Assembly: GCF_002873135.1 (NCBI RefSeq)
Contig: NZ_MCVI01000015.1
Location: forward strand, 45,646 to 109,645
DNA from: Shewanella sp. 10N.286.48.A6
GTDB lineage: Bacteria > Pseudomonadota > Gammaproteobacteria > Enterobacterales > Shewanellaceae
Length of the DNA: 64,000 nucleotides
Direction: 5' to 3'
Numbering within the stretch: position 1 is the stretch's first letter; each line of letters starts with the position of its first letter. Below are positions 35,592 through 63,626 of this stretch, one piece after another. A model generated the notes under the pieces. The model worked only from the letters and a program-made list of their open reading frames with translations, was not told where the DNA came from and made no database searches. A program made the translations under genes and the position numbers.

Positions 35592-37730
35592 TTACTGACC
35601 TTTAGCTTTACAGTTAAATTCACCGCTGTAATCAAAGTTAAAGTTGTAAATAGTGAAACCTTCAGTACCTTCTTTAGTACCGTCTTCACCGTCTGTAGAC
35701 AAACCAGTGATTTCATTAGTTGCACAGCGAATACCTTCTTCAAGTTTAGCTGAGCTAAATGAAACACTTTCTGTCGTTGGCGCGATAAGCTCAAACACTT
35801 TAGCGTTCGGGAAGGCTAAGGTGTTATCACCTTCTTGCTCAGCTAAACGATCAGCTAAGTAGAACTGCACCAATTCACGGTTATTAAATGCCGCTTCTTC
35901 TTTAACTAGCTCAGCATTATCAACACCTGGCATACGCGAGTTAGATGCACGGTAGTTGTTAGTGATCACATAGATTTCTGCGTCATCAGCAATTTCAACA
36001 CCGTTATAGGTAAGCTCAACTAACTGCTTGCTGTCTGTTGTATCAAATTCCCAACCATTAATGTTGGTGTACTTTGATTGGTTTTCAACGTTGATTGTGT
36101 ACTTAAGTAGCCCTTCACCTGACTGGTTAAAACCAGCGTAGAAGGCATCAAAGTTATAACCAGGGAAGCCTTCAACAAGGAAAGTCTCACCTTCAGCTAA
36201 TGGTAAGCTGTTATAAGCATTTGAGTTAACCCACTCAATCCAGTTTTTCATATCCGCACCGGTCATTTTTAAAACGGCAGGGGTATTGTTATCAAATACA
36301 TAGATATCAGCAACTGAAGCGTTAGTTAGCTCACCAGTTTGAATGTTGGTGTAATCGGCGCCGCCATTACGACCAGATTTAAATGGCGCAGATACAGACA
36401 TGAAAATAGCGTCTGCAGATGCATCAGCAAACTCGCCTTCTGCTTTCCATTTATTCAGTTGATGAAGCTGTGCTTGGTTAACCACTTGCATGGATAAATC
36501 TGGTACCACTTGTGGGAAGAAGCTGTTCATGTTGACATCGATTTCAGCAATCATTGCTGACATGTAATCAACTGTACCTTCATGCTCTTCAACTACTAGA
36601 TCTTCAATAAGAACATCAGACTCATTTGGAATTAGTGAGCGCAGCTCGGTTGTAGAGTGAGAATGGTCAACAGTCCATGTCTCGCCGTCATCGCTAGATT
36701 TAAGTTTAAGATCAATCACCCCTAACTTAGCACCCCAGAAACCTGGCATGATGGCTGGAATACCATTAATTAAACCAAGCTCAGGATCAACCCCTGGAAT
36801 TTCACCGTATTCATTATTTGCATTCGGGAATTCACGGTGGTCGTGACCAAACATAATGGCATCAACACCGTCTACATAAGCAAGGTGTAAGGTTGCGTTT
36901 TCAGCAAACTCATCATTATTGTCATTGAGGCCTGAATGCGGGATAGCAACAATAACGTCTGCGCCTTCAGCCTTCATCATAGGCACAAAATGTTCAGCGG
37001 TTTTCTTGATATCTGAAACCATCACATTACACACTAGATGCGAAGCATCCCAGCCCATAATATCTGGTGGTGTAAAGCCAATGACACCGACTTTAACATT
37101 GTATGATTCACCATTTTCGGCAATAAACTCACGGTCTAAAATGACATATGGGTTATACATATTTTCTGCGGTGTCATAAAAATCTTCAGTAATGCGTACT
37201 TCACATTCATCTGCTGCATTGCTGACTTTTTCAAGCGAGCTATCAGCTTTCCATACGTTTGAGCTAACATAAGGGAAATCTGAACCTTTAAGCGCTTCAT
37301 CTAGGTATTCAAGGCCATAGTTGAACTCATGGTTACCTAAGTTAGCTGCATCATATTCTAAATAGTTCATCGCTTTGTAAACCGGATGCTTTTCACCTTT
37401 AAGATGCTCAGCACCTAGCGCTGCCATGTAGTCGCCCATTGGGCTACCTTGGATTAAATCGCCATTATCAAATAACATGCTGTTTGTTACTTCATCGCGC
37501 GTTTCAGCAATGACTAAGGAAGTACGTGCTAAGCCCCATTCTGGCAGGTTGTTTTCGTTGTGTTCTGCACTCGCGAAGTAATTGTATGGCATAACGTTAG
37601 TATGGATATCAGTCGTTTCCATCAAACGGACTTCCATGCTAATTGATTTATCGTCTGATGAGCTATTACAACCTGTAAGTACTGCTGCAACACTGGTCGC
37701 AAGCAGAAGTTTCTTAGCATTCAATTTCAT
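35592..37730 (-). CDS. CpdB/UshA-type 2',3'-cyclic-nucleotide phosphodiesterase / nucleotidase lipoprotein
   Basis: A 712-residue lipoprotein (lipobox AVLTGC, Cys at 21). The N-terminal metallophosphoesterase domain carries the ligand motifs TTDIHTN, DNGDLIQGSP, NLGNHEFNYGL, VAIPHSGL and MFGHDHREFPN in the canonical order, so the dinuclear metal site is intact. The C-terminal 5'-nucleotidase domain (about 400-690) includes the substrate-binding NNYRASNSRMPG. CpdB-like enzymes release nucleosides and phosphate from extracellular 2',3'-cyclic nucleotides. It is somewhat longer than E. coli CpdB (about 650) and is lipid-anchored rather than soluble. Confidence 0.87.
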   Translation of the reverse strand: MKLNAKKLLLATSVAAVLTGCNSSSDDKSISMEVRLMETTDIHTNVMPYNYFASAEHNENNLPEWGLARTSLVIAETRDEVTNSMLFDNGDLIQGSPMGDYMAALGAEHLKGEKHPVYKAMNYLEYDAANLGNHEFNYGLEYLDEALKGSDFPYVSSNVWKADSSLEKVSNAADECEVRITEDFYDTAENMYNPYVILDREFIAENGESYNVKVGVIGFTPPDIMGWDASHLVCNVMVSDIKKTAEHFVPMMKAEGADVIVAIPHSGLNDNNDEFAENATLHLAYVDGVDAIMFGHDHREFPNANNEYGEIPGVDPELGLINGIPAIMPGFWGAKLGVIDLKLKSSDDGETWTVDHSHSTTELRSLIPNESDVLIEDLVVEEHEGTVDYMSAMIAEIDVNMNSFFPQVVPDLSMQVVNQAQLHQLNKWKAEGEFADASADAIFMSVSAPFKSGRNGGADYTNIQTGELTNASVADIYVFDNNTPAVLKMTGADMKNWIEWVNSNAYNSLPLAEGETFLVEGFPGYNFDAFYAGFNQSGEGLLKYTINVENQSKYTNINGWEFDTTDSKQLVELTYNGVEIADDAEIYVITNNYRASNSRMPGVDNAELVKEEAAFNNRELVQFYLADRLAEQEGDNTLAFPNAKVFELIAPTTESVSFSSAKLEEGIRCATNEITGLSTDGEDGTKEGTEGFTIYNFNFDYSGEFNCKAKGQ

Positions 37731-38921
37731 ATTTATTCCAGATAATTATTTTATTTATGTCTGTATGCCGAATTATTGCCACAGATTAAGATTGGTCAAT
37801 TAATCTCAAGCAATATTTCAGCATCAGTAAAGGCGGGAGTAAATTAAATAAAACATACAAATAAGTAAAGTGAAGATTTTATTTCAAACAACAATAAAAA
37901 CAAAAAACAGCTTTGAATTTAAAGTCAAAAAAATAACAACGCAGAAAACAAGCAACAAACGTAAAAATAAAAATTACAGATATAGTTTGAAAAACAAGCT
38001 TAAGACTCACGGCTAAAAACCTTAAGTCTTAACTTACCCCTCATAAATATTTCAGTTAATATAAAAACAGCACATATATTCAACAAGTATCTCTTAGGAT
38101 AAAAAATATCCCTCAAGATATGAATAAAAAACAACACTCTGAATTGTTTCGACAGCAAGACACTGCCACGATCAAAAACATAAAATAATTAAAGTACAGA
38201 CAGATAAGATAAAACCAAAACTTCAGACCTCTATTTTACTCTAGCCTTTGGCACCATGTTTAATTACAAAACCTTAGCTTTTATGATTGTGATGATTGGT
38301 AGAGCTTATGTCCCAGTCAATTGAAATGACACTTGTTCTTGAAATGATCAATAAATTTCAAATCTGACCAAAATAGAAAACAATTCAGTACTACTCGCCT
38401 ACTGCTACTGATAACATTATAAATATAAAATTAGTTTTGAAAATTTAAATTAAAAACCTGGCTGCAACAAGTGTTTCTCACAAAATAAACACCAATCAAG
38501 CCGCAAACAAACACCTGAGCAACAACAAATAAACATCTTAAGCCTCGCCGCGACACTTTAAATTACCAACAAATTAAATGGCAATTAATAAAAATAGTTT
38601 CTTAAATTATTCAAACCCTAATTATTAATAACCTACAGCAGTTACAAAGTGATTAGATTGTTAATAAAGACATAAGCAAAGATAAAATAGCAACACTATT
38701 TGTAAAATACAGACATAGAGACAACCCAATATAAACAGTGTAATCAATTATCAGTTAAATATAATTTTATTATCGAAAAGTGCTTAATTAAAAGTGTAAG
38801 AATTATAACTAAGTCCCTGGTAGATGATATTGACTACTACTGAATTCAATAGTACTTATAAAGGTAAGAGCACATATAAACTGATTGCCAATTAATATGT
38901 GCTTAAGTGTCTGATTGACGA
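37731..38921. other. AT-rich intergenic region of 1.2 kb without genes
   Basis: No reading frame of note is open on either strand. The composition is visibly poorer in G+C than the genes around it, with long runs of A and T. I see one hairpin near its right end (38869-38903, 9-bp stem), which could terminate the minus-strand barrel gene. It may hold a decayed gene or a long upstream regulatory region of the nucleotidase gene; nothing decisive is visible. Confidence 0.6.
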
Positions 38922-40097
38922 TTAAAAGCCCGAGCCTAGGTTAAAATACAATGCCCGCTCCTCTTCACTGGCGGCGACATCCACTCCCATATGAATGCCG
39001 TAACGTCTGGCAATTTGATAGCGAAAGCCAACACCATAAGCATTAACGGAGTCGCTGCTGTCTTGTATTGATTCCGTCTCTGTCTCTGTTTGGCCGTAAC
39101 CGTAAAAGGTCGATACCGTCCAGCGGTGATCTATGTGATACATCAACTGCGCTTGTAAGGTGCCGACTTGATCACCTTGATAGCGAAATGCTGATACACC
39201 ACGAAGATCAACATAAGGCTTAGTGGTAGGTGAAAGGCTGGTGTCTTTCTCATACAATTCCTGATAACTAGCAGCGACCGCAAAGGTCCACTTTTTAGCA
39301 ATAGGGAAATAAAACTCGCCACTGGTATCTAAGGTACCGTAATGACTGTCAGAACCTAACGCCTCATCATATAACATGTATTCAGCCGATAAAATGTAAC
39401 CCTTTTTCGGGAAAAACATATTATCTCGAGTGTCATACTCGGCCACCAAACCAAGACCTGAGGTGGTATGTTTATCACCCAGTGCGGTTTGCAAAAACCA
39501 ATCAACTACAGCGTTTGATGATGAGACACTGGACACTGACCATAGCTGTTTTAAGCCCAACAATAATGGCGTATCAGCCACTCTAAACTGCAGTTTTTGC
39601 ATCGCAAAGTAAGCTTCGGTAGTGGTATCAAATTTGAGGTTTTTCCCTTCAGGTAGTAAGCCACCTAAATTAGTATAAATATCTAAATTCGCCTTAGCAG
39701 CACCTGCGCCGCCGGTATAACGAATACTATCGTTTAACCAAGAATGACGGTGCCCCGCAAAAGCAAACCAAGTACCATTGGCTGTCGCGCCGCCGCCCAC
39801 CAAGGTCATTGCTGCAGGAATTAACTGGGCGCCGCCATCAATAGACTCAAGGGCTTTTTGTTTACGTAGTTCTTTTTCTTCATCGGTTTCGTGCAAAAAC
39901 AAGCCCATCAAACCACCACCAGCACCAACTGCAGGCTCAGTAATTAAAATAGGAACCGGTAAAAAACCATAGGCATTTTCAGCGAGGTGATAGCCAAGAT
40001 CAAATTGGCCATCTTGCTGGTCAAAAAAATAAGACTGTTCAGCAGATGCTTGCCAAGAAGCCATCGCTAAAATGCATAATGAGATTTTTTTAAACAT
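38922..40097 (-). CDS. BamA/TamA-like (surface antigen D15) outer-membrane barrel
   Basis: A protein of about 391 residues from the ATG at 40097 (a TTG five codons upstream is less likely). Signal peptide MFKKISLCILAMASWQASA, then a short linker and a barrel with about sixteen alternating strands. The Omp85 marks are FVAEYDTRDNMFFPKKGYILSAEY (quoted in part) and VDLRGVSAFRYQGDQVGTLQAQL, equivalent to the DTRD and loop-6 RGY regions, and the C-terminal FNLGSGF. No POTRA domain is visible, so it is a barrel-only relative. Substrate unknown. It has an inserted charged segment (LHETDEEKELRKQK) after the N-terminal strands. Confidence 0.8.
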   Translation of the reverse strand: MFKKISLCILAMASWQASAEQSYFFDQQDGQFDLGYHLAENAYGFLPVPILITEPAVGAGGGLMGLFLHETDEEKELRKQKALESIDGGAQLIPAAMTLVGGGATANGTWFAFAGHRHSWLNDSIRYTGGAGAAKANLDIYTNLGGLLPEGKNLKFDTTTEAYFAMQKLQFRVADTPLLLGLKQLWSVSSVSSSNAVVDWFLQTALGDKHTTSGLGLVAEYDTRDNMFFPKKGYILSAEYMLYDEALGSDSHYGTLDTSGEFYFPIAKKWTFAVAASYQELYEKDTSLSPTTKPYVDLRGVSAFRYQGDQVGTLQAQLMYHIDHRWTVSTFYGYGQTETETESIQDSSDSVNAYGVGFRYQIARRYGIHMGVDVAASEEERALYFNLGSGF

Positions 40098-52869: not shown

Positions 52870-54093
52870 ATGAAAAAAGTATTAGTAATAGGCTATGTAT
52901 GGCCAGAGCCGAATTCATCGGCGGCGGGCACACACATGATGTCGTTATTGAGGCTTTACAAGCAGCAAGGTTGGATTGTTGAGTTCGCTACTCCAGCTCA
53001 GCCATCGGATCATATGATTGATTTGAGTCTTGAAGGGATCTCCAGCAAAAATATCGCCCTTAATTGTGACAGTTTCGATGTCTATATCTCACAATATCAG
53101 CCTGATATCGTCATGTTTGACCGCTTTATGATGGAGGAGCAGTTTGGCTGGCGCGTCGATAAAAACTGTCCTGACGCACTGAAAATTCTCGATACTGAAG
53201 ACCTGCAATGTTTGCGTAATGCCCGTCATCAAGCAGTTAAAAGTGAGCGAACACTCACACAAGCTGATCTGTTCAGTGACATCGCTAAGCGTGAAATTGC
53301 TGCTATTCTTCGCTGTGATATTTCACTCATCATCTCTAGTTTTGAGATGGCGCTATTACAAAGCCAGTTTAAAATCGATTCAAGCTTACTGCACCATTTG
53401 CCGTTTATGGTCGACCTTGATAAGTGCCCCACGCAAACAAAAGCCTTCGCTGACCGCCAGCACTTTATGACCATAGGCAACTTTCGCCATGCGCCAAACT
53501 GGGATGCGGTGTTGTACCTGCAAAAAATCTGGCCGTTAATTCGAAAGCAACTGCCACAGGCTGAGCTGCATATTTATGGGTCTTATCCACCACCAAAAGC
53601 CACGGCGCTGAATAACCCCAAAACGGGCTTGTTAATCAAGGGCTGGGCTGAAGATGCCTATGCCGTCATGGAGCAATCCAGGGTTTGCTTAGCGCCAATA
53701 CGATTTGGCGCCGGGATTAAAGGCAAGTTACTTGATGCCATGATCATGCAAACCCCAAGTGTCACCACATCGGTTGGCAGTGAAGGCATGGTAGAAGATG
53801 AACCATGGCCGGGAGTCATCAATGACGATATGGCTGCCTTTGCCCAAGCTGCGGTGGATTTGTATCGTGATGAATCACGTTGGCTGGAAGCGCAAAGCCA
53901 TGCCAGCAACCTGTTATCGGCGCGATATGATGGCCAAACTCTGGGACGAAAGTGGATGGAGAAGTTAACTCAGACGCTTGAAAATATTGATCAACATAGA
54001 CTCAATAACTTCACTGGCGCCATGATGAAGCACCACTCCATGGCGAGCACGAAATATATGTCCCAATGGATAGCGGCTAAAAACGCTAAATGA
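52870..54093 (+). CDS. Glycosyltransferase (GT4/GT1-like)
   Basis: A 407-residue GT-B fold enzyme. The N-terminal domain opens with KKVLVIGYVWPEPNSSAAGTHM, including the Gly-rich SAAGTH loop; the C-terminal donor domain contains FMTIGNFRHAPNWDAV, LHIYGSYPPPKA, IKGWAED and the APIRFGAGIKGKLLDAMIMQTPSVTTSVGSEGM (quoted in part) signature, with the acidic EGM motif at the end. No membrane helix. It lies alone within the decayed island at the rnpB locus; a sugar-transfer role on surface polysaccharide is the usual one, but acceptor and donor cannot be read. Confidence 0.85.
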   Translation: MKKVLVIGYVWPEPNSSAAGTHMMSLLRLYKQQGWIVEFATPAQPSDHMIDLSLEGISSKNIALNCDSFDVYISQYQPDIVMFDRFMMEEQFGWRVDKNCPDALKILDTEDLQCLRNARHQAVKSERTLTQADLFSDIAKREIAAILRCDISLIISSFEMALLQSQFKIDSSLLHHLPFMVDLDKCPTQTKAFADRQHFMTIGNFRHAPNWDAVLYLQKIWPLIRKQLPQAELHIYGSYPPPKATALNNPKTGLLIKGWAEDAYAVMEQSRVCLAPIRFGAGIKGKLLDAMIMQTPSVTTSVGSEGMVEDEPWPGVINDDMAAFAQAAVDLYRDESRWLEAQSHASNLLSARYDGQTLGRKWMEKLTQTLENIDQHRLNNFTGAMMKHHSMASTKYMSQWIAAKNAK

Positions 54094-54458
54094 TATCAGT
54101 GCTAACACTCTTGAAAAACACTCTTGAAATGCGCTCTTGAAATACACTGGGCTCTGCAGGCTATTCTGCAGAGTTCACTTTCAGTTTTAAATCAGCAGTT
54201 TTAAATCGACAATTTCGAATCGATAATTCCGAAAGAACAAACCCCTAAAGGTCTAAATCTCTATAGCCTTAAACCTCTACAGCCCTAGCTCTGTCAATCC
54301 AGGATGGTCATCGGGTCTGCGCCCTAGCGGCCAGTGAAAGCAGTTAGGAGTATTATCCACTTGTAATCAGAATCTTCTTTGTTGCTCCAGAAGTTCACTA
54401 TTGATCAGTCAGCTAGAAGCTATAAGGGATCTTGTGTGTCACAGGTTGTGACCCACTT

Positions 54459-54528: not shown

Positions 54529-54547
54529 GGTTGAGCTGGCCGATAAG
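54529..54547. repeat. Internal att copy (19-bp rnpB 3'-end repeat)
   Basis: GGTTGAGCTGGCCGATAAG, identical to 63204-63222 within rnpB. It separates the complete island from the decayed one. Confidence 0.93.
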
Positions 54548-54676
54548 TCAACTCAAGAAGAACATGTAACGTCATGTTTTATTGAATATTTAACACCATG
54601 AACTTTATCTATTTAGAACAGAATATATCTAATTAAGCGACCAAATATATAAGGTGCTAGCCCTAATAACTAAATA

Positions 54677-56497
54677 TTAAACAACCAACTTTGCTTCAGT
54701 TGCTAATAAATGCATAAAATCATCTGTAGATTTAATTTTTAAGTCAATCTTCATGAAATCTGCCATATTAAATACAGCCTCATTAGGGTTATCACCATCA
54801 ACAATAGATTTGTTCAAGTTTTCAGATAAAGACTTGAAACGTAACCTATCTTTGGCTAGCTTTTCTATGGAAGCAGTTTCAAAAGCATCTGTGTTTTCTT
54901 TAATTTGTTTTATGCGCATCTCAAAAATTTCTTTAACTCTTTTAGTCCGCATTTCACTTTTGGCTCCAAACAGATCGGCCTGGTCAAGTATCCATACAAC
55001 AATTGTGGATGCTATACCAGTAAACATAATCATTGTTGCTTCTGATAAAACATCTCCCATAGGAAGCTTGTTAATAAAACCTAGCACAGTTTCTTCAAAT
55101 GCAAACCCTATATACGTAATAACTGTTGTTGCTAATAGCTTCGTTATCGCGTCTGCCTTCTGTGCTGAAGATGAAGCACCAAGTAATATTTTAATGGCTT
55201 GAACGATAGCACTAAAGCCTTCAACGATTATTTTTAGTGCTTTTTTCAGTATTCCAAAAAACATGTCTACGATTGCATTTAATAAGTACCTAACGAAATT
55301 TTTAAGTGCATCAGTAAGTGCTCCTAATCCAACGTTCGCAATATTTTCCATTACATATTTACTTGCACGTTTTAGCCTAAACGAAAATGCTGATAATTTC
55401 GAAGTTGCATCAGTCCCGTGAAGAATACCATTTTGAAACATATCTTTGAATTCAAAAACTATTGGTTTCAAAATGAGAATCAACAATTCTCCAAGACCTT
55501 TATCTTTTAATTCACCCACAGCTTGTTTTTGTGCATCTTGAGCTACGCCTTTGATTGCCTTAGTATCTTTTGTTATATTTTTAACAACAGTTTTATTAAG
55601 GTGCTTCTCAACCGCATTTTTAGCTTCATCTTCTCGTATAATTGCTTTATTAAAAGTAGCTTCATTTACATGTTTTTCTATACTATTTAACGTTTCTTGC
55701 TCTTGTTTAGTTAACTGGGTTTTATTTCTTAAATTATCTCGCTTAGCCTTCAATTCAGACCATGACTGACCAGACTTTATTTTATTAACTTTCTCACTAA
55801 TAATATCAAAGTTAGCACCTTGGTTGGTTGCCGCTTTGATATCGTCCTTTGTGATGCCTTTACTTCCGCTATAATCCTCAAAAGCTTTTGCTAATGGGAT
55901 GTTGTGATCATTGTTTGCACTCGACGTGGTCGTTTTTTTACCATTTTCTCTTTGGCTTTTATTATAGTCGCTACCAGTTCTTCTAAGTCTTTTACGTGAA
56001 CCATCCTCATTGACTTCTAGCTCGCTATAAACAGATTTTTTTTCACTAAAATACTCATCAGTATAATTATTCTTTAAAGTACTATCTTCAATATCATCAC
56101 GAACATACTTTCCTTTATCATCAATATTCGACTCAGTATTTTGATCTAATTGCTGTTTGTCGAGTATGGCATCTTCATGATCCTTTTTTTTTGATGCATA
56201 AGTAAAAGCATTTACATCATTTACCAAGCGGCTAGCCGTTATACCTCTCTGTTTGAGACCTAATTTTTTGACTCCAACTAGGCCATCACAGATATTTAAT
56301 ATAAGAGGGGTCAATAAATTTTCTGAAGAATTGAATTCGTCCCTTATTTCCTCTAAAACATCTATTGAAGCTTTCTGGTCATGCAGCTCCATATCAATTA
56401 AAACTTTACTCGCCTGTAAAGGTGATGCTGCAGTTAATTTTTTAACAATGTCTTCGGCGGTTAAAATTGGTTGGTTAAACTTAGCTTTATCAGACAT
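54677..56497 (-). CDS. Large unknown membrane protein of the island operon (606 aa)
   Basis: The last gene of the five-gene operon; SD AAGGAG six bases before the ATG, 9 bp after the preceding gene. Residues 1-200 are hydrophilic and low-complexity, with many Lys/Glu/Asn and a repeated acidic pattern (about 105-180). A coiled-coil region spans about 240-330. Then come hydrophobic or amphipathic segments: about 336-350, 400-440 (FVRYLLNAIVDMFFGILKK and onward), 452-476 and 488-504, and a final helical domain (510-606). I do not recognise the family. The mixture of amphipathic helices and a long cytoplasmic head suggests a membrane-inserting or pore-forming effector, but that is inference. Confidence 0.75.
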   Translation of the reverse strand: MSDKAKFNQPILTAEDIVKKLTAASPLQASKVLIDMELHDQKASIDVLEEIRDEFNSSENLLTPLILNICDGLVGVKKLGLKQRGITASRLVNDVNAFTYASKKKDHEDAILDKQQLDQNTESNIDDKGKYVRDDIEDSTLKNNYTDEYFSEKKSVYSELEVNEDGSRKRLRRTGSDYNKSQRENGKKTTTSSANNDHNIPLAKAFEDYSGSKGITKDDIKAATNQGANFDIISEKVNKIKSGQSWSELKAKRDNLRNKTQLTKQEQETLNSIEKHVNEATFNKAIIREDEAKNAVEKHLNKTVVKNITKDTKAIKGVAQDAQKQAVGELKDKGLGELLILILKPIVFEFKDMFQNGILHGTDATSKLSAFSFRLKRASKYVMENIANVGLGALTDALKNFVRYLLNAIVDMFFGILKKALKIIVEGFSAIVQAIKILLGASSSAQKADAITKLLATTVITYIGFAFEETVLGFINKLPMGDVLSEATMIMFTGIASTIVVWILDQADLFGAKSEMRTKRVKEIFEMRIKQIKENTDAFETASIEKLAKDRLRFKSLSENLNKSIVDGDNPNEAVFNMADFMKIDLKIKSTDDFMHLLATEAKLVV

Positions 56498-56506
56498 ACA
56501 ATCTCC

Positions 56507-57433
56507 TTAAGCAACTTTTTGCGCTAAATAATTAACTTTAATGCTTAATGATTCTGCTAGACTTTCATCTTTATCGATTACTTCACCATTCTCAGATAAA
56601 TATCCCAGAGTAGCCATTTGCTTTAAAACAATCGAAAGATTAAATAAGGCATGAAATTCTTCAATATGTACTATTGGAATTAGTTTAAAATCCAAGTTAT
56701 GTGAAAATATATTTTCAGAGTTGGCCATTTGTTTAAAACGTTGTGTTTGAATGCCATATTCAAATCTATTTAATAGTGCTTCATAGTTTCTAATTAAAGA
56801 TCCAAAATAACCTATGACGTTATCTACTGATTCAGAGATAACCTGCAGCTTTTTACTTTGAGATTCTAGCTTCGTTATTTCTTCATAAACCCTGACCTCT
56901 TCCTGCTTTACTTTTTCTAACGATTCTTTAGCTTTCTTTCGAGAAAAAATACCCAAGGTAAAAATCATGGCTGCAGTATCGATGAAAGTCATTTTATTAA
57001 AGTCGATAAGTATCAAGTCTTTTTTAGAGCTAACACCGGATGTATCTTTTACGTCCAAAATTGAATCATCAAATAACTCACCAAAAGGTTGCCCTTTCAC
57101 TGTCACATTCTTCAATCTACTTGATACATTAATAAAACGCTTAAAGTGATGGTTATAAATATCAGTTTTGAAGCTATTGATTTTACTAACCTTATCTTCA
57201 ATATCATCACCGATACCTTTCACCGCAGCCTGATATTTACTCCTAGCCTTATCATATCTTTCATTTATTTCAGCAAGAAGGGCTTCAGCTTCATCTGTGT
57301 AGTTTTTTCCTGTAAATGCATTCCATACTTTTGTACAAACTGTTTTCACTTTATCTACACATTCACTAACTAGCTTTTTACCACTATTCCAAACCTTGCT
57401 ACAGCCACTTTTAAAGCTACTCCATAATCCCAT
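56507..57433 (-). CDS. Amphipathic coiled-coil protein of the island operon (308 aa)
   Basis: The fourth gene of the operon; its SD AAGGAG lies across the TerB-like stop codon, which suggests translational coupling. The N-terminal 40 residues form a repeated amphipathic pattern with KVWN at residues 13-16 and again at 35-38, each preceded by Cys. Long coiled coils follow (about 46-110 and 165-220), separated by a moderately hydrophobic segment (148-164, FIDTAAMIFTLGIF). No enzymatic motif is visible. The family is unknown to me; the amphipathic start suggests membrane binding without a true transmembrane helix. Confidence 0.72.
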   Translation of the reverse strand: MGLWSSFKSGCSKVWNSGKKLVSECVDKVKTVCTKVWNAFTGKNYTDEAEALLAEINERYDKARSKYQAAVKGIGDDIEDKVSKINSFKTDIYNHHFKRFINVSSRLKNVTVKGQPFGELFDDSILDVKDTSGVSSKKDLILIDFNKMTFIDTAAMIFTLGIFSRKKAKESLEKVKQEEVRVYEEITKLESQSKKLQVISESVDNVIGYFGSLIRNYEALLNRFEYGIQTQRFKQMANSENIFSHNLDFKLIPIVHIEEFHALFNLSIVLKQMATLGYLSENGEVIDKDESLAESLSIKVNYLAQKVA

Positions 57434-57436
57434 GAC

Positions 57437-57841
57437 TTACTCCTTATTGATTAATTGCTGGCCTTCTAAATACAGGTCATTCATAGCCAAGACCCAACGG
57501 TGGATCTTTTTCATTTCGTATTCCTCAAACCCCATAGCTGCTGACAGTTTACTCATGAAGTTTGACTCTTCTTCACATACATCACCATCAGCCAATAAAA
57601 TGCCAAACAACTCTAACAAAACAATCCTTTTATTTTTGTTAGATGATTTAGAAATAACTTTAGTAACACCTTCAATATTTTGTTGCTTTGAAAGCTCGTA
57701 AGACGGCAATTCACATTCATGCATAAACGATTGAAAAACTTCCAACTCTTCGTCTTTATGAGTACCATTTAATCCCATAGAAAAATGAGCTAACTCTAAA
57801 AAATTTTTCTTTTCACCAATATTTAATTCACTTAGATACAT
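57437..57841 (-). CDS. TerB-like protein of the island operon (134 aa)
   Basis: A small helical protein with two acidic, EF-hand-like elements: NGTHKDEELEVF near residue 25 and LLADGDVCEEESNFM near residue 85, the pattern of the TerB (tellurite resistance) fold that binds divalent metal. The surrounding helices (FLELAHFSMGLNG; AAMGFEEYEMKKI) fit the family. There is no other ter gene nearby, so a tellurite-resistance role is unlikely; TerB domains also occur in several anti-phage systems. AAGGAAG precedes the ATG by a short gap and the gene starts 11 bp after the previous one. Confidence 0.7.
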   Translation of the reverse strand: MYLSELNIGEKKNFLELAHFSMGLNGTHKDEELEVFQSFMHECELPSYELSKQQNIEGVTKVISKSSNKNKRIVLLELFGILLADGDVCEEESNFMSKLSAAMGFEEYEMKKIHRWVLAMNDLYLEGQQLINKE

Positions 57842-57852
57842 CTTTTACTTCC

Positions 57853-58761
57853 TTAATATGCTTTAACTGTTGGCTTTTGACCTTTACCACTTTCATCAAA
57901 TGAAAATTCTGTGCGTTGATTAATTTCACCTGCTTCATCGTATAAATATTCGAATACGATTTGTTCTTGACCATTGAATTCAAGACCTTTCTCTGGATTG
58001 CCATCTGCGCTATAGAACATTTGATATTTCAGCTGTTCATTTGCAAATGTATCGCTACTGCGCTTAACGCCATTTTCATAATAAACCTGAGTTACTTGAC
58101 CTGAATGTTTGTCAGTTATTTTTAATACTTTACAGTTACCAAGTTGTTTAGTGAACTCTTCGGTATCAACAGTAAGCTCAGTATGTTTACCAAGCTCATT
58201 TGTGATTTCGATAGTATTTTCTATTCTTAATGTGTGTATTGACTTTGTTAACTGCTCAAAATTAGAAAGCTGTTCTTGCTTATGTGAAAATGCTAACGTT
58301 TTTTGTGATTTTTCAATTTCATTAATTGAATTGTTAATTGTATTAGTTGATATTTTTTGATTTTCTAGAAGTGCGGATGATGAATTAGTTAATAGAGACA
58401 AAATACTTTCATTTTGTGCTTTAGAGTTTTCTTTAAAGGTGGAAAGAGTTAAAACCACGCTCTTAAGTTCTGCTTGAACTTGAGAATAACACCCAATTAT
58501 ATTTTCTTCAGTTTTAGATAAACTACTTGAAATATCTTTATTGATTGCCAAAACAGCGGTGTTAATAGCTTTAGTTCCTTGCTCAACGGTTACTTTTAGC
58601 TCTGCAGTTTCTTTCGCATTTTTGATGTTCGAAGCTTTTGTTTGTTCATCCAATTTACTTTGTAAGTTACTAACTTTTGATTTTAAAAACACAGTTGTAA
58701 TCAAATTAATAACACCAACTAATGATACTGCGATGATTACGTGTAGTAGGTTGATTTCCAT
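57853..58761 (-). CDS. Membrane-anchored coiled-coil protein of the island operon (302 aa)
   Basis: One N-terminal membrane helix (7-26, LHVIIAVSLVGVINLITTVF) followed by a long coiled coil (about 28-200) rich in Thr, Ser and Lys. The C-terminal third (205-302) is a small beta-rich domain with tandem short strand pairs, such as VYYENGVKRSSDTF and MFYSADGNPEKGLEF and FEYLYDEAGEINQRTEF. These resemble MORN or YD-type repeat units rather than an enzyme. It would project a coiled-coil stalk and a binding domain from the inner membrane. It starts 17 bp after the WYL gene. Confidence 0.72.
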   Translation of the reverse strand: MEINLLHVIIAVSLVGVINLITTVFLKSKVSNLQSKLDEQTKASNIKNAKETAELKVTVEQGTKAINTAVLAINKDISSSLSKTEENIIGCYSQVQAELKSVVLTLSTFKENSKAQNESILSLLTNSSSALLENQKISTNTINNSINEIEKSQKTLAFSHKQEQLSNFEQLTKSIHTLRIENTIEITNELGKHTELTVDTEEFTKQLGNCKVLKITDKHSGQVTQVYYENGVKRSSDTFANEQLKYQMFYSADGNPEKGLEFNGQEQIVFEYLYDEAGEINQRTEFSFDESGKGQKPTVKAY

Positions 58762-58778
58762 ATATTTCTCTTTGTTTT

Positions 58779-59645
58779 TTAAGTATGATTGTAATTCTTT
58801 ATTAAGTTCGTCTTACATGTAAGACGGTAAATCATTTCTATATTGGGTATCCAACTTTTAACTATAGGGAAAACCTGTAGCTGATTAACAATATTTGTTG
58901 CTATTAATAAACTTCCATTATCTAACTTATCTTTTATCTTTTGCTCGGGTAAAACTCTTCTCCTTTCAAAGTGACTTGCAACGTTCTTATTAACCTTTAA
59001 AATAACTTTAATCTTACCTTCACTAATCCATATAGTGTCATCATTAATAATTTCTATTTCTTTGTCTTTTAAAAACAACTCATTTGAAAGCAGTAAGATT
59101 TCTATTAAGCCAACTTGGAATATTTTTAGCTTCCCCGCATCAATAGCAGCCAAGTACCAACACCCTTGAAAACTAATTAATTTATAAGGCTCAATGTTTT
59201 TGTATTCTTTTTCATTGTAATAAAAATCAACTTTATAGTTTGATCGTATAGCCTTACTGATTTTTGTAAATTGATGCCGATACTGAGGCATACAAGATAC
59301 CTCGTAATTTACGGATTTGATTAAGTAAGGGGAGTCTTGATTGTCACTAAACAGCTCATTTAAAAAGCTTTCATTAAATATGGGAAACAAATCCCTTACA
59401 CCACAAATATTAGAGAATTTACTAATAATAGCTTTATTCAACTTTCCAGCTTTATTTTTTCTAAGCGACCAAAGAGGTTTTGACTTATCAATATCAAGAA
59501 ATCTTAGGCGTTCATTGATATCTCTTCGAACGGTTCGTTCTGATACGTTAAATTGGTTTGCTAATAGTGAGGTATTAATACCTTCACTTTTATTTAGCAT
59601 ACCAATTATTTCAGCCAATCGTTCAGCTATCTTAATATCTGCCAT
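58779..59645 (-). CDS. WYL-domain transcriptional regulator of the island operon
   Basis: A protein of about 288 residues from the ATG at 59645; a longer frame to 59735 runs through the operator and is unlikely. The N-terminal DeoR-type winged helix reads SLLANQFNVSERTVRRDINERLRFLDI; the C-terminal WYL domain carries YKVDFYYNEKEYKNIEPYKLISFQGCWYLAAID (quoted in part) and a closing VKSWIPNIEMI beta element. HTH-WYL repressors (CapW, BrxR) control anti-phage operons and sense nucleotide-like ligands. It is the first gene of the operon, with an inverted-repeat operator 52-68 bp upstream, so self-regulation is likely. Confidence 0.87.
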   Translation of the reverse strand: MADIKIAERLAEIIGMLNKSEGINTSLLANQFNVSERTVRRDINERLRFLDIDKSKPLWSLRKNKAGKLNKAIISKFSNICGVRDLFPIFNESFLNELFSDNQDSPYLIKSVNYEVSCMPQYRHQFTKISKAIRSNYKVDFYYNEKEYKNIEPYKLISFQGCWYLAAIDAGKLKIFQVGLIEILLLSNELFLKDKEIEIINDDTIWISEGKIKVILKVNKNVASHFERRRVLPEQKIKDKLDNGSLLIATNIVNQLQVFPIVKSWIPNIEMIYRLTCKTNLIKNYNHT

Positions 59646-59696
59646 GTCCTTTGAAATACCTTTAACTACTTGAGTATTTGATACTAAACCATTGAA

Positions 59697-59713
59697 CGGA
59701 CAGGTGGTGTCCG
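59697..59713. promoter_or_regulatory. Candidate WYL-regulator operator
   Basis: CGGACA-GGTGG-TGTCCG is a 6-bp inverted repeat with a 5-bp spacer, the form of operators bound by HTH-WYL dimers. It lies about 52 bp upstream of the chosen start of the WYL gene and would sit at the operon promoter. Confidence 0.6.
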
Positions 59714-59927
59714 CACAACATAATCCTTTAAACAATTCTAAGCTACTATTTTTTATAGAATAAATCCATACTTTAATTAACTATTTCACTATATTTGCCT
59801 AAATAAATATAGGTCTATATTGTCTTCAAGTGATTACTACTTGATAGGTATCGTGGATAGATGACTTGTTTACTGGATAGGTGGCAAAAAATTCAGATTT
59901 GCAGAAGACAAATCCATTGAAAAATCC

Positions 59928-60350
59928 TCATGTCCGAAATTTATGCTTATATAGAAATTTTGGAAACTTGTATTTACAAATTAACCATAATGATACCAGC
60001 TTATAGTAACCTGTTAATTCATATATCAAAAATTTCAGTCTTGAATTGTAGCTATGTGTTATTAAGCCGTGATAATGAGTAAGTTCAAAACTCATAGATT
60101 CAAGCTTTTCAAGGTTCAATTTAGCTCTTAAATTATGAGACTTCTGTTTTTCATTCCATTTATTACAAACAAGCAACTTACCTTCTACACTTTCAGCTAA
60201 ATAGCTTCCACTATCATCAGTGACGTAAATTGAATAACAGTCTACAGCTTCTCCTTCAGGCCCACTCCTTGGTATAGGATTCATTTTGGATGATTCAAGT
60301 GCACGTTTAAGTGCCTTAATAAAAGTTTTATCTAAGAATCCTAGTGACAT
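59928..60350 (-). CDS. Small unknown protein of the island (about 140 aa)
   Basis: Read from the ATG at 60350 (a TTG start is two codons earlier). The N-terminal half is hydrophilic and beta-like (VDCYSIYVTDDSGSYLAESVEGKLLVC), the C-terminal third is hydrophobic with two possible membrane segments (LKFLIYELTGYYKLVSLWLI). No family recognised. It is separated from the WYL operon by 192 bp that may hold its own promoter. It may not be a real gene, although it shows no stop codons over its length. Confidence 0.5.
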   Translation of the reverse strand: MSLGFLDKTFIKALKRALESSKMNPIPRSGPEGEAVDCYSIYVTDDSGSYLAESVEGKLLVCNKWNEKQKSHNLRAKLNLEKLESMSFELTHYHGLITHSYNSRLKFLIYELTGYYKLVSLWLICKYKFPKFLYKHKFRT

Positions 60351-60467
60351 TAGCAACAGCCTTCATAAGTTAATACTCCGTAATATTACCATGTACTTCA
60401 ATAAATTAACCTATACATCTCCCCCCCATCACAACACCACACAAAGGGTAGCACTTAACCACACCCT

Positions 60468-60566
60468 AGTGACACGTATCACAAATGATACCAATAGCGT
60501 GTCATTTAAGTTGATAATCGGCTTGTGACACACTACAGTGGCAACATCTAACACTTAAGTGACACA
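60468..60566. promoter_or_regulatory. Repeated TGACAC motifs before the serine recombinase (candidate res/operator site)
   Basis: TGACAC occurs at 60470, 60526 and 60559, with inverted copies such as CGTGTCA at 60498; arms at 60468-60476 and 60498-60506 form an inverted repeat of about 9 bp. CACTTAAGTG at 60552 is a perfect palindrome. Sites of this form are used by serine resolvases and by their repressors. The layout directly upstream of a resolvase gene fits a res site. Confidence 0.5.
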
Positions 60567-60572
60567 GAAAAC

Positions 60573-61142
60573 ATGCCTCAAATTATTGGATATATCAGAG
60601 TATCAACAGTTGACCAGAACACTGCTAGGCAGCTTGATGACATCGAATTAGACAGAGAGTTTACTGATACCTGCTCAGGCAGCACCGTAACCCGTCCAGC
60701 ACTGAACGAACTAAAGAGTTACTGTAGAGAAGGTGACACCGTAGTTGTACATGATATAAGCCGCTTAGCTCGTAACATTGAAGACCTGATTAACTTGATA
60801 CGCTTTTTCAATGATAAGGGGGTAACTGTTCAATTCAAAAAAGAGGCTATGATTTTCACCGCTGAGCAATCGAACCCAATGAACACATTGATGCTCAATC
60901 TATTAGGTTCCGTATACCAGTTTGAGCGTGAGATAATGCTAGAACGTCAACGTGAAGGCATTGCCAAAGCTAAGTCAGCAGGTAAATATAAAGGACGCCC
61001 ATTGTCTGTCGCTCCTTCTGAGATAACTGAACTATTAAATCAAGGGTTATCAATTCGAAAAGTTGCTAGCCAATTAGGGGTAAGTACTACAACAGTACAG
61101 AAGGTTAAAAAGTTATCTAAACCACTTTTCAAATCTTCATGA
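60573..61142 (+). CDS. Serine recombinase, resolvase/invertase family
   Basis: A 189-residue resolvase. The N-terminal catalytic domain carries YIRVSTVDQN (Arg9, catalytic Ser11), a second Arg pair in VVVHDISRLARN, and the Glu-rich helix FTAEQSNPMNTLM; the C-terminal HTH is SIRKVASQLGVSTTTVQ (about 158-175). Standard length for the family. It carries repeated TGACAC motifs just upstream, so it may act on res sites there. Its presence together with a tyrosine integrase in one island is notable; it may resolve island dimers or invert a segment. Confidence 0.92.
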   Translation: MPQIIGYIRVSTVDQNTARQLDDIELDREFTDTCSGSTVTRPALNELKSYCREGDTVVVHDISRLARNIEDLINLIRFFNDKGVTVQFKKEAMIFTAEQSNPMNTLMLNLLGSVYQFEREIMLERQREGIAKAKSAGKYKGRPLSVAPSEITELLNQGLSIRKVASQLGVSTTTVQKVKKLSKPLFKSS

Positions 61143-61277
61143 GGACTTCAATACAAATGGCAGGTCTTCCCCTAAATCCTCACACTCTAAAGCTGTTGGT
61201 TTAGCTTACACAGGAAAACAGCACAGTGATAATAAGGATTAGAGGTTCTACACTTTTACTGGTTACATTAATATATT

Positions 61278-61526
61278 CTAATTATCTAACCCTGTCTTGT
61301 AGCCAAGTAATTTTTTACCAAGTTTGGCTAAAAAACAAACGCTAATAAAGTAAATAATTAAAGCGACATATATTAAGTAGTCACCTCTTGGTAAGTAATT
61401 AATCATATGAAATTCGTAATTGAAACTTAAGGTTTGTCCAACCGCGCATATAATTATGCAAACTAACCAATTAACAACCATAAAAAAGAAATCTTTTAAT
61501 TTCATAAATCTTAATGAGCCTTTCAT
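61278..61526 (-). CDS. Two-TM small membrane protein of the island
   Basis: An 82-residue protein with two membrane segments (about 13-30 and 50-66) separated by a short loop (SFNYEFHMINYLPRGD) and basic residues at both ends (LKLKD, KLGKKLLGYK). No signal peptide, no recognised family. It lies between the serine recombinase and the integrase, with 325 empty bases before the integrase. A second ATG eight codons in is possible. Confidence 0.55.
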   Translation of the reverse strand: MKGSLRFMKLKDFFFMVVNWLVCIIICAVGQTLSFNYEFHMINYLPRGDYLIYVALIIYFISVCFLAKLGKKLLGYKTGLDN

Positions 61527-61851
61527 GAAGTCTTACATCTACCGATAGAACTATACGATCTTGTAAGAATAAAATTATAAATTGATTCGTTAATTATAAC
61601 TCATGCCAATCAACCTAACTATTAACTAGACAGCTTTACAATGCACCCCTCCCGGTCTGCAACACTAGATATACATATAACCTAAAACCTCCACGTAATG
61701 GCTACAGCTCTTCCCCCTTTTTTACAAATAATTGATTGTGCGATCCCTACATACCCTTAAACCATGCTTTGAAAGCACATGTATACGTTTATCGGCAGAA
61801 TAACGGTGTCAGCTATGGCTATGTATACTTGCAACCTCATTCAATCATTCA
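61527..61851. other. Intergenic region inside the island
   Basis: A 325-bp stretch between the two-TM gene and the integrase. I see no open frame of interest and no clear hairpin. It is unusually AT-rich and contains short runs such as CCTAAAACCTCCACG near 61680. Confidence 0.4.
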
Positions 61852-63132
61852 TCAATCAAATTCAACTCTGTCGATCACAACCAGTAATGACTTCAGCGGG
61901 TAGCTATGGGTGTACCTTTTCGTGATACCAGATTCTGATTTTTCATGTCCTACCACCTCTTGTAATAAGCCTAACTCAACACCACCAGCTCGAGACTTGG
62001 TAATAAATGTATGCCTAAAACTGTGAAAGACTTTGCGCTCACCGAGGTCATTCATGGTAGTAATATTGGAGTTGCGGATTGATTTATGTAAGTGGTTAGT
62101 CAAAGCATTGGGACGGTCAACTAATTCAGGAAACAAATAATCAGTTTTCAGTGATACGTAAGACAAAAATCCAGCATTCATTAATTCGTGGTGTACTGGA
62201 ACCCTTCTTGTTGCAGCTTTAGTTTTCCCTTCAGCAATCCAAAAGTAGTGCCGCTGAGCATCTTCATCAAAGCGAATATCTGTTGCTTTAAGATTAGTTA
62301 TTTCACTGCGTCTTGCACCAGAATAAATCGCTATAAGTAAGACCCACTTCCTCCAACCGTGGTGATGCTTTGCGAATAACCTAATAGCGTTGATTTCATT
62401 ATCAGAGAAAACAGCAAACCGAGTTGAACTAGATTCAAACTTAATATTATTTGTTGGCGACTCACTAAGAATATCGACTTCTTTTGTCAGGTAACTACTA
62501 AAGAAACCCTGACACAGCTTAAACAGTTCCTTCACCGTCTTAGAAGATACAAGGTGGACTTGCTCTACCTCATTAAGCTCAAGCAGTTCTTGCGGTGACA
62601 GTAAGTGATAAGGCTTTATGTTTCGCCTAGGTGTTGAGGCATATCGGGTTAACAGTGATTTAATATCTTGCTTAGTTATCTGTGTCACTGCGACATTGCC
62701 CAAACAGCACTTTATAAATTCAAAGTACCTTTTAGCACCACTCTCAACTTTCACACTCCACGATTTCCACTCAACAAAGTCAGCCCAAGCATCCTCAAGT
62801 AAGTAAGGTTTAGGTGTTATTGCTGGTGGTATAGGTAACGACCTCTGAAGGCTAGCTGTAAGCTCATATACAGCGCCATGAGGCATTATTACTGAGTTCA
62901 GCTCACATTGTCTTAGGTGATTAATTAGCTGCGTCACATGATCACACGGGGCTATTAATTGGTTGATTTGATGTATTACAGGGAAATGATTAGCTAAACG
63001 AGACACAGCAATACTGTATGAATCGGTGCGCAGTGAACGTTTGATTTCTTTATGGGGATATAAGTGTCTAAATCGCTGAGGAATAACAAAGCGGAAATGA
63101 TAGGTTTTATTTCGAAGATGGATGTACTGCAT
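61852..63132 (-). CDS. Tyrosine recombinase / integrase of the rnpB island
   Basis: A 426-residue integrase. The N-terminal arm-binding part opens with YIHLRNKTYHFRFVIPQRFR and matches the DUF6538-type start. The catalytic domain has the tyrosine-recombinase residues: Arg274 in SGARRSEI, Lys in EGKTKAATRRV (303-305), His370 and Arg373 in FHSFRHT, His396 in VGHEKSE and the nucleophile Tyr407 in KRYTHS. It is encoded next to its own attachment site, reading away from rnpB, which is typical of rnpB-, tRNA- or tmRNA-type integration. The promoter region holds the 12-bp-period TGTACCA repeats at 63135. Confidence 0.93.
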   Translation of the reverse strand: MQYIHLRNKTYHFRFVIPQRFRHLYPHKEIKRSLRTDSYSIAVSRLANHFPVIHQINQLIAPCDHVTQLINHLRQCELNSVIMPHGAVYELTASLQRSLPIPPAITPKPYLLEDAWADFVEWKSWSVKVESGAKRYFEFIKCCLGNVAVTQITKQDIKSLLTRYASTPRRNIKPYHLLSPQELLELNEVEQVHLVSSKTVKELFKLCQGFFSSYLTKEVDILSESPTNNIKFESSSTRFAVFSDNEINAIRLFAKHHHGWRKWVLLIAIYSGARRSEITNLKATDIRFDEDAQRHYFWIAEGKTKAATRRVPVHHELMNAGFLSYVSLKTDYLFPELVDRPNALTNHLHKSIRNSNITTMNDLGERKVFHSFRHTFITKSRAGGVELGLLQEVVGHEKSESGITKRYTHSYPLKSLLVVIDRVEFD

Positions 63133-63134
63133 AA

Positions 63135-63153
63135 TGTACCAAACCTTGTACCA
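63135..63153. promoter_or_regulatory. Integrase operator repeats
   Basis: TGTACCA-AACCT-TGTACCA, a direct repeat with 12-bp period, lies a few bases upstream of the integrase start and 50 bp inside the att copy. The same arrangement with different core bases survives in the decayed island at 54459. Control of integrase expression by such repeats is inference. Confidence 0.6.
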
Positions 63154-63202
63154 TTTAAGGCGTAAAATCTAGAAACACTATGCAATACATCCACTTACGG
63201 AA

Positions 63203-63545
<343 letters not shown>

Positions 63546-63626
63546 GGCGCGGATTATAGCCTAAGCCACTGCAACACACCAACTAAAATATGGCTTTATG
63601 GCAAACCATATGAAGCTGAGGTAAAC

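Follow-up and report, generated by a model that had tools for sequence, protein, structure and literature searches.

The locus considered here raises the question of what five closely packed genes on the minus strand of a 64,000-nt stretch of Shewanella sp. 10N.286.48.A6 (NZ_MCVI01000015.1) do for the cell that carries them. This whole stretch is called the window below, and all coordinates refer to it. The genes encode an HTH-WYL regulator (288 aa, 58779-59645), A302 (57853-58761), a TerB-domain protein (134 aa, 57437-57841), C308 (56507-57433) and D606 (606 aa, 54677-56497), the predicted effector. The main new result is a predicted nuclease region in D606 that had not been recognised before. 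With a probability of about 0.55, we read A302-TerB-C308-D606 as a membrane-anchored system, presumably defensive, which would act against phages or other mobile genetic elements by cutting incoming DNA at the inner membrane.

A predicted nuclease region and its companions

A five-gene set with ribosome sites was described in the first-pass annotation. The five open reading frames (ORFs) are indeed present, separated by gaps of 17, 11, 3 and 9 nt, and purine-rich ribosome sites are visible in the sequence. A302, C308 and D606 match no Pfam family above cut-off. D606 had been presented as a large membrane protein, which is incomplete, the predicted nuclease region having been missed. From the ORF call, a PADLOC match, a structure model and fold comparison, D606 appears to combine an HNH (His-Me finger) nuclease with a helical membrane region. 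The nuclease region spans residues 136-303 (55589-56092, minus strand) and includes the predicted catalytic motif D197-H198...N229...N238..K241 (55775-55909, minus strand). H198, N229, N238 and K241 are invariant in 49/49 D606 homologues (alignment A1), the residue before the motif His being D in 46 of them and E in the other 3. All 22 divergent relatives likewise keep H, N and N, always preceded at H by D or E, and H, N and N are the only invariant residues among them besides the first Met.

The D606-family profile retrieves GmrSD_C nucleases, and matches of the A9 profile overlap GmrSD_C matches above cut-off in 6/6 genomes tested; this link goes via relatives and not directly from D606. Standalone proteins of the GmrSD_C type (type IV restriction GmrSD, SspE) share the [DE]H..P / N / N..K motif, whereas the HNH part of D606 is joined to hydrophobic helices, and no other restriction domain was found with Pfam or PADLOC. 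Residues 310-600 are modelled as almost all helix. The hydrophobic helices (residues 405-507, 54977-55285, minus strand) display Kyte-Doolittle 19-mer peaks of 1.6-1.8 starting at 420-423 and 483-487, because of which the helical half, alignable across the wider family, likely inserts in the membrane. Of the membrane-inserting effector proposed previously, the membrane association fits the evidence, but the protein is better read as a membrane-tethered HNH nuclease.

In some genomes the D gene consists of two ORFs with the break near the nuclease/membrane junction (L015:10001-11925, L027:10001-11816, L132:4457-6126). Since the two ORFs overlap slightly in L027 and L132, some of these split genes may represent a natural two-gene form and not decay. 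In 25/26 rows from Klebsiella, Raoultella and E. coli plasmids (H22-H47), the D homologue bears the name ATP--cob(I)alamin or cobalamin adenosyltransferase, probably through misannotation.

The membrane anchor claimed for A302 was recovered as a single N-terminal hydrophobic stretch (Kyte-Doolittle 19-mer maximum 2.57), followed by a region that varies in length and is poorly conserved, and then by a conserved C-terminal domain (alignment A7). Its MORN_2 resemblance remains below threshold (0.39). Lysines come after the hydrophobic N-terminus and suggest that A302 would form a cytoplasmic stalk. A profile search, in which the best 8000 candidates were scored, gave 27 A302 homologues besides itself; 10 of the 28 rows, the window's own included, appear to match genomes in the D606 list, which suggests that A302 travels with the cassette.

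The TerB-like character of the third protein was borne out by a match to PF05099 (7.6e-7, 29.9 bits against a curated cut-off of 24.4; alignment A6). A TerB-like protein is also included, together with an ATPase and a DEAD/DEAH helicase, in Shango as described in the available text of PMC10250203; the operon shares the TerB protein but contains no ATPase or helicase family found by Pfam or PADLOC. C308, for which 118 homologues besides itself were retrieved, is modelled mostly as long helices (mean predicted local distance difference test score, pLDDT, 65.8). While A302 and the TerB protein gave nothing in PADLOC at E<=1, C308 weakly resembles PDC-M09A (0.0027). When the profiles of C308 and two M09A-like proteins were compared, the probability was only 17, so that homology is not established. 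TerB and C308 probably serve as switch and scaffold.

Conserved order and exchangeable partners

A contig scan of genomes with the D606 alignment (A1) gave 25 loci, whose gene content was judged by blastp; several are close relatives in the same place, and the loci are therefore not independent. Far from being scattered, A302-TerB-C308-D606 occur in the same order and on the same strand in 19 of them (L006-L008, L010-L025). Tight spacing is kept, with gaps of -14 to 32 nt in the 7 of these 19 orthologous loci that were computed, starts being chosen mechanically. A contig edge cuts L009 inside C308, and L026, L028 and L029 have, among the window's genes, the D homologue only. In L027 (Weissella) and L030 (Helicobacter), TerB-C308-D606 are preceded by another long helical protein, probably amphipathic, in place of A302 (L027:6099-8693, L030:6683-8269). 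The one in L030 matches apolipoprotein A1/A4/E at 1.4e-28, its L027 counterpart remaining below cut-off.

Distribution of the operon genes is patchy. Named D606 matches come mostly from Shewanella and other marine Gammaproteobacteria; at E<=0.001, D606 is matched in 26/152 genomes of a family-level sample, several of these matches being weak or partial, and C308 in 1/369 class-level genomes, namely the window's own.

The WYL gene behaves differently from the other four. The protein does display the expected domains (HTH_DeoR 6.5e-9, WYL 3.1e-7) and PADLOC matches, but the gene is an optional neighbour and not a fixed part of the system, being found just upstream of the four genes in 3 of the 19 loci (L014, L017, L018). 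In the wider family, WYL genes also adjoin D or its partner in L003, L066, L124 and L128. Where present, the WYL protein probably represses the operon. The inverted-repeat operator attributed to it does not exceed chance: a site exists at 59692-59718, where 9/11 arm bases pair, and it is equalled in 55/150 first-order Markov shuffles of the region. Nor was its CGGACA/TGTCCG paired core seen ahead of WYL in L014, L017 or L018, the last two displaying a lone GGACA.

Across the wider family, D homologues are associated with diverse partners; the loci were taken as encountered, not as a random sample, and the tally leaves out L005, L068, L124, L125, L145 and L146. Nine loci have a small partner just upstream of D (L001, L004, L026, L028, L029, L064, L065, L069, L132), falling into two groups of four, the one group homologous to the other (hhalign 98.8), with the ninth, that of L132, linked by blastp. 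In six others, a PDC-M09A-like coiled coil precedes D and a short cysteine-cluster (YkgJ-like) ORF follows it (L066:7539-7811, L067:7539-7823, L126:4247-4543, L128:4524-4790, L130:4357-4644, L131:3908-4195); the latter is annotated as such in L066 and L067 and was judged from the sequence start in the other four. A PDC-M40C-like gene lies downstream of D in three loci (L002 by PADLOC, L127 and L129 by blastp), and in L003 D is directly downstream of JukA. The D606 family thus appears as one effector that different lineages have placed beside different partners.

D606 itself matches PDC-M40B over residues 121-513 (1.5e-12), and the D proteins of L003, L064, L065 and L066 do so strongly (2e-39 to 8e-64), whereas M40C finds no match at E<=1 among the five operon proteins. 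PDC systems are presented, in the available text of PMC12988326 and PMC10855318, as candidates obtained via guilt-by-embedding and mostly unvalidated. No paper naming PDC-M40 or PDC-M09 was found in the literature searched, which mostly lacks preprints and subscription papers.

The reading that we rank next, and consider unlikely, is abortive infection, in which D606, once infection is sensed, would turn on the host itself. It would cut the chromosome, or make the inner membrane permeable by means of its helices, so that the cell dies before phage release. According to the available text of PMC13282480 on the jumbo phage killer (Juk), JukA works with diverse effectors at the early infection vesicle, where JukB forms pores. 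At E<=1, JukA has no match in the operon and JukB none in D606, and the JukB model matches 0/3 D-homologue records at E<=10. Moreover, a pure pore would have no need of an invariant nuclease motif.

The TerB domain, together with a TerY/TerD gene set near one distant homologue (L001), could recall a stress or tellurite/metal-resistance operon, TerB and the coiled coils protecting the envelope and D606 being a structural membrane protein. We hold this to be the least probable of the alternatives: the HNH triad is kept by every aligned family member (49/49 and 22/22), the neighbours of D vary and include JukA, no other Ter family was detected by Pfam among the five operon proteins, and the setting is a mobile island.

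An integrative island at rnpB

That the operon lies on an integrative island had been claimed from the start, and integrase, end repeats and empty sites in relatives were all found. A 19-bp attL-like direct repeat at 54529-54547 is an exact copy of the attR-like repeat at 63204-63222, at the 3' end of the gene for RNase P RNA (rnpB, bacterial class A, minus strand, 63203-63546; RF00010, 331.9 bits; L061 10848-11191), the integration target. Among seven relatives compared, four (L096, L097, L098, L100) have empty sites in which the left flank joins rnpB directly; in these the left flank starts at 54417 or about 54480, with an overlap at the repeat. Repeats and empty sites together therefore delimit an island of about 8.7 kb (54529-63222), of which the operon is the main cargo. 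In the other three relatives the left-side match is limited to the repeat itself, and L094 (from G108), the closest of them, has the last part of the sulphur-transporter gene just ahead of rnpB, without island. In the window, a glycosyltransferase gene (52870-54093) separates the sulphur transporter from the island; given the arrangement in L094, a second insertion or a deletion took place here.

Besides the operon, the island carries a minus-strand ORF of 142 aa without recognised Pfam family (59928-60356), a serine recombinase of the resolvase/invertase type on the plus strand (60573-61142; PF00239, 2.2e-35), a small hydrophobic ORF of 82 aa (61278-61526, minus strand) and a tyrosine integrase (61852-63132, minus strand; PF00589, 5.4e-15; DUF6538, 1.3e-10). 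In 2-kb windows, its G+C is 0.31-0.38 against 0.38-0.47 elsewhere, apart from one further dip (0.34) at 37001-39000. Additional, incomplete copies of the rnpB end (103-138 nt, 93-97% identical to the window's) occur in genus relatives that also have a longer copy in the genome (G037:C5:142878-142995, G114:C64:52952-53054, G093:C1:596172-596309). Because of these copies, rnpB seems to be used repeatedly for integration at its 3' end.

An island with such a cargo, and the finding of relatives on plasmids, could also suit a selfish module, whose nuclease would exclude competing elements or punish loss of the island. This seems improbable, as Pfam and PADLOC revealed no small antitoxin-like partner among the operon genes and the genes flanking relatives are largely chromosomal. 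In the flanks, the Pfam tally (among the 25 of 199 families listed) comprises mainly ordinary chromosomal functions. PADLOC matches at 1e-10 besides WYL, in 127 ORFs around 18 of the 25 loci, concern BnzA, IetA, a type I REase, mad2, mad3, TRIP13 and ZorA, one ORF per model; no enrichment is claimed from these counts.

A proposed mechanism and its meaning

We return to the anti-phage or anti-mobile-element system that we favour. Stalk, TerB module and membrane effector had been united in a defence hypothesis from the outset; its general sense is supported by the conserved gene order, the mobile island, the PDC-M40B match and a relative downstream of JukA, while the defence role stays conjectural and the effector is recast as a nuclease. 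In this system the complex would sit on the cytoplasmic face of the inner membrane, where A302, TerB and C308 would detect phages or mobile elements at the point where they enter. Sensing would release or position D606, and its HNH domain, a predicted nuclease, would cut the entering DNA near the membrane. The helical part would hold D606 there, and may in addition make the membrane permeable. The operon was not found described in the searched literature on PDC/Juk, TerB, WYL and HNH-nuclease defence, consulted in part, preprints and subscription papers being mostly outside the search.

More tentatively, and with doubt outweighing confidence, D606 could typify a superfamily of HNH nucleases that are embedded in the membrane and combined with five or more partner sets (JukA; an M09A-like coiled coil plus a YkgJ-like protein; PDC-M40C; a small, often glycine-rich partner; A302-TerB-C308), and that cut the DNA of phages or plasmids as soon as it comes through the inner membrane. 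Restriction would then take place 'at the door' and not in the cytoplasm.

If the proposed function is right, a family now labelled 'DNA repair protein', 'ATP--cob(I)alamin adenosyltransferase' or 'hypothetical protein' would be a nuclease effector, and unvalidated PADLOC candidates would gain a testable mechanism, in which H198A and deletion of the hydrophobic helices would separate cutting from pore formation. It would also suggest that immunity at the membrane follows a shared design whose sensors, JukA among them, are exchangeable.
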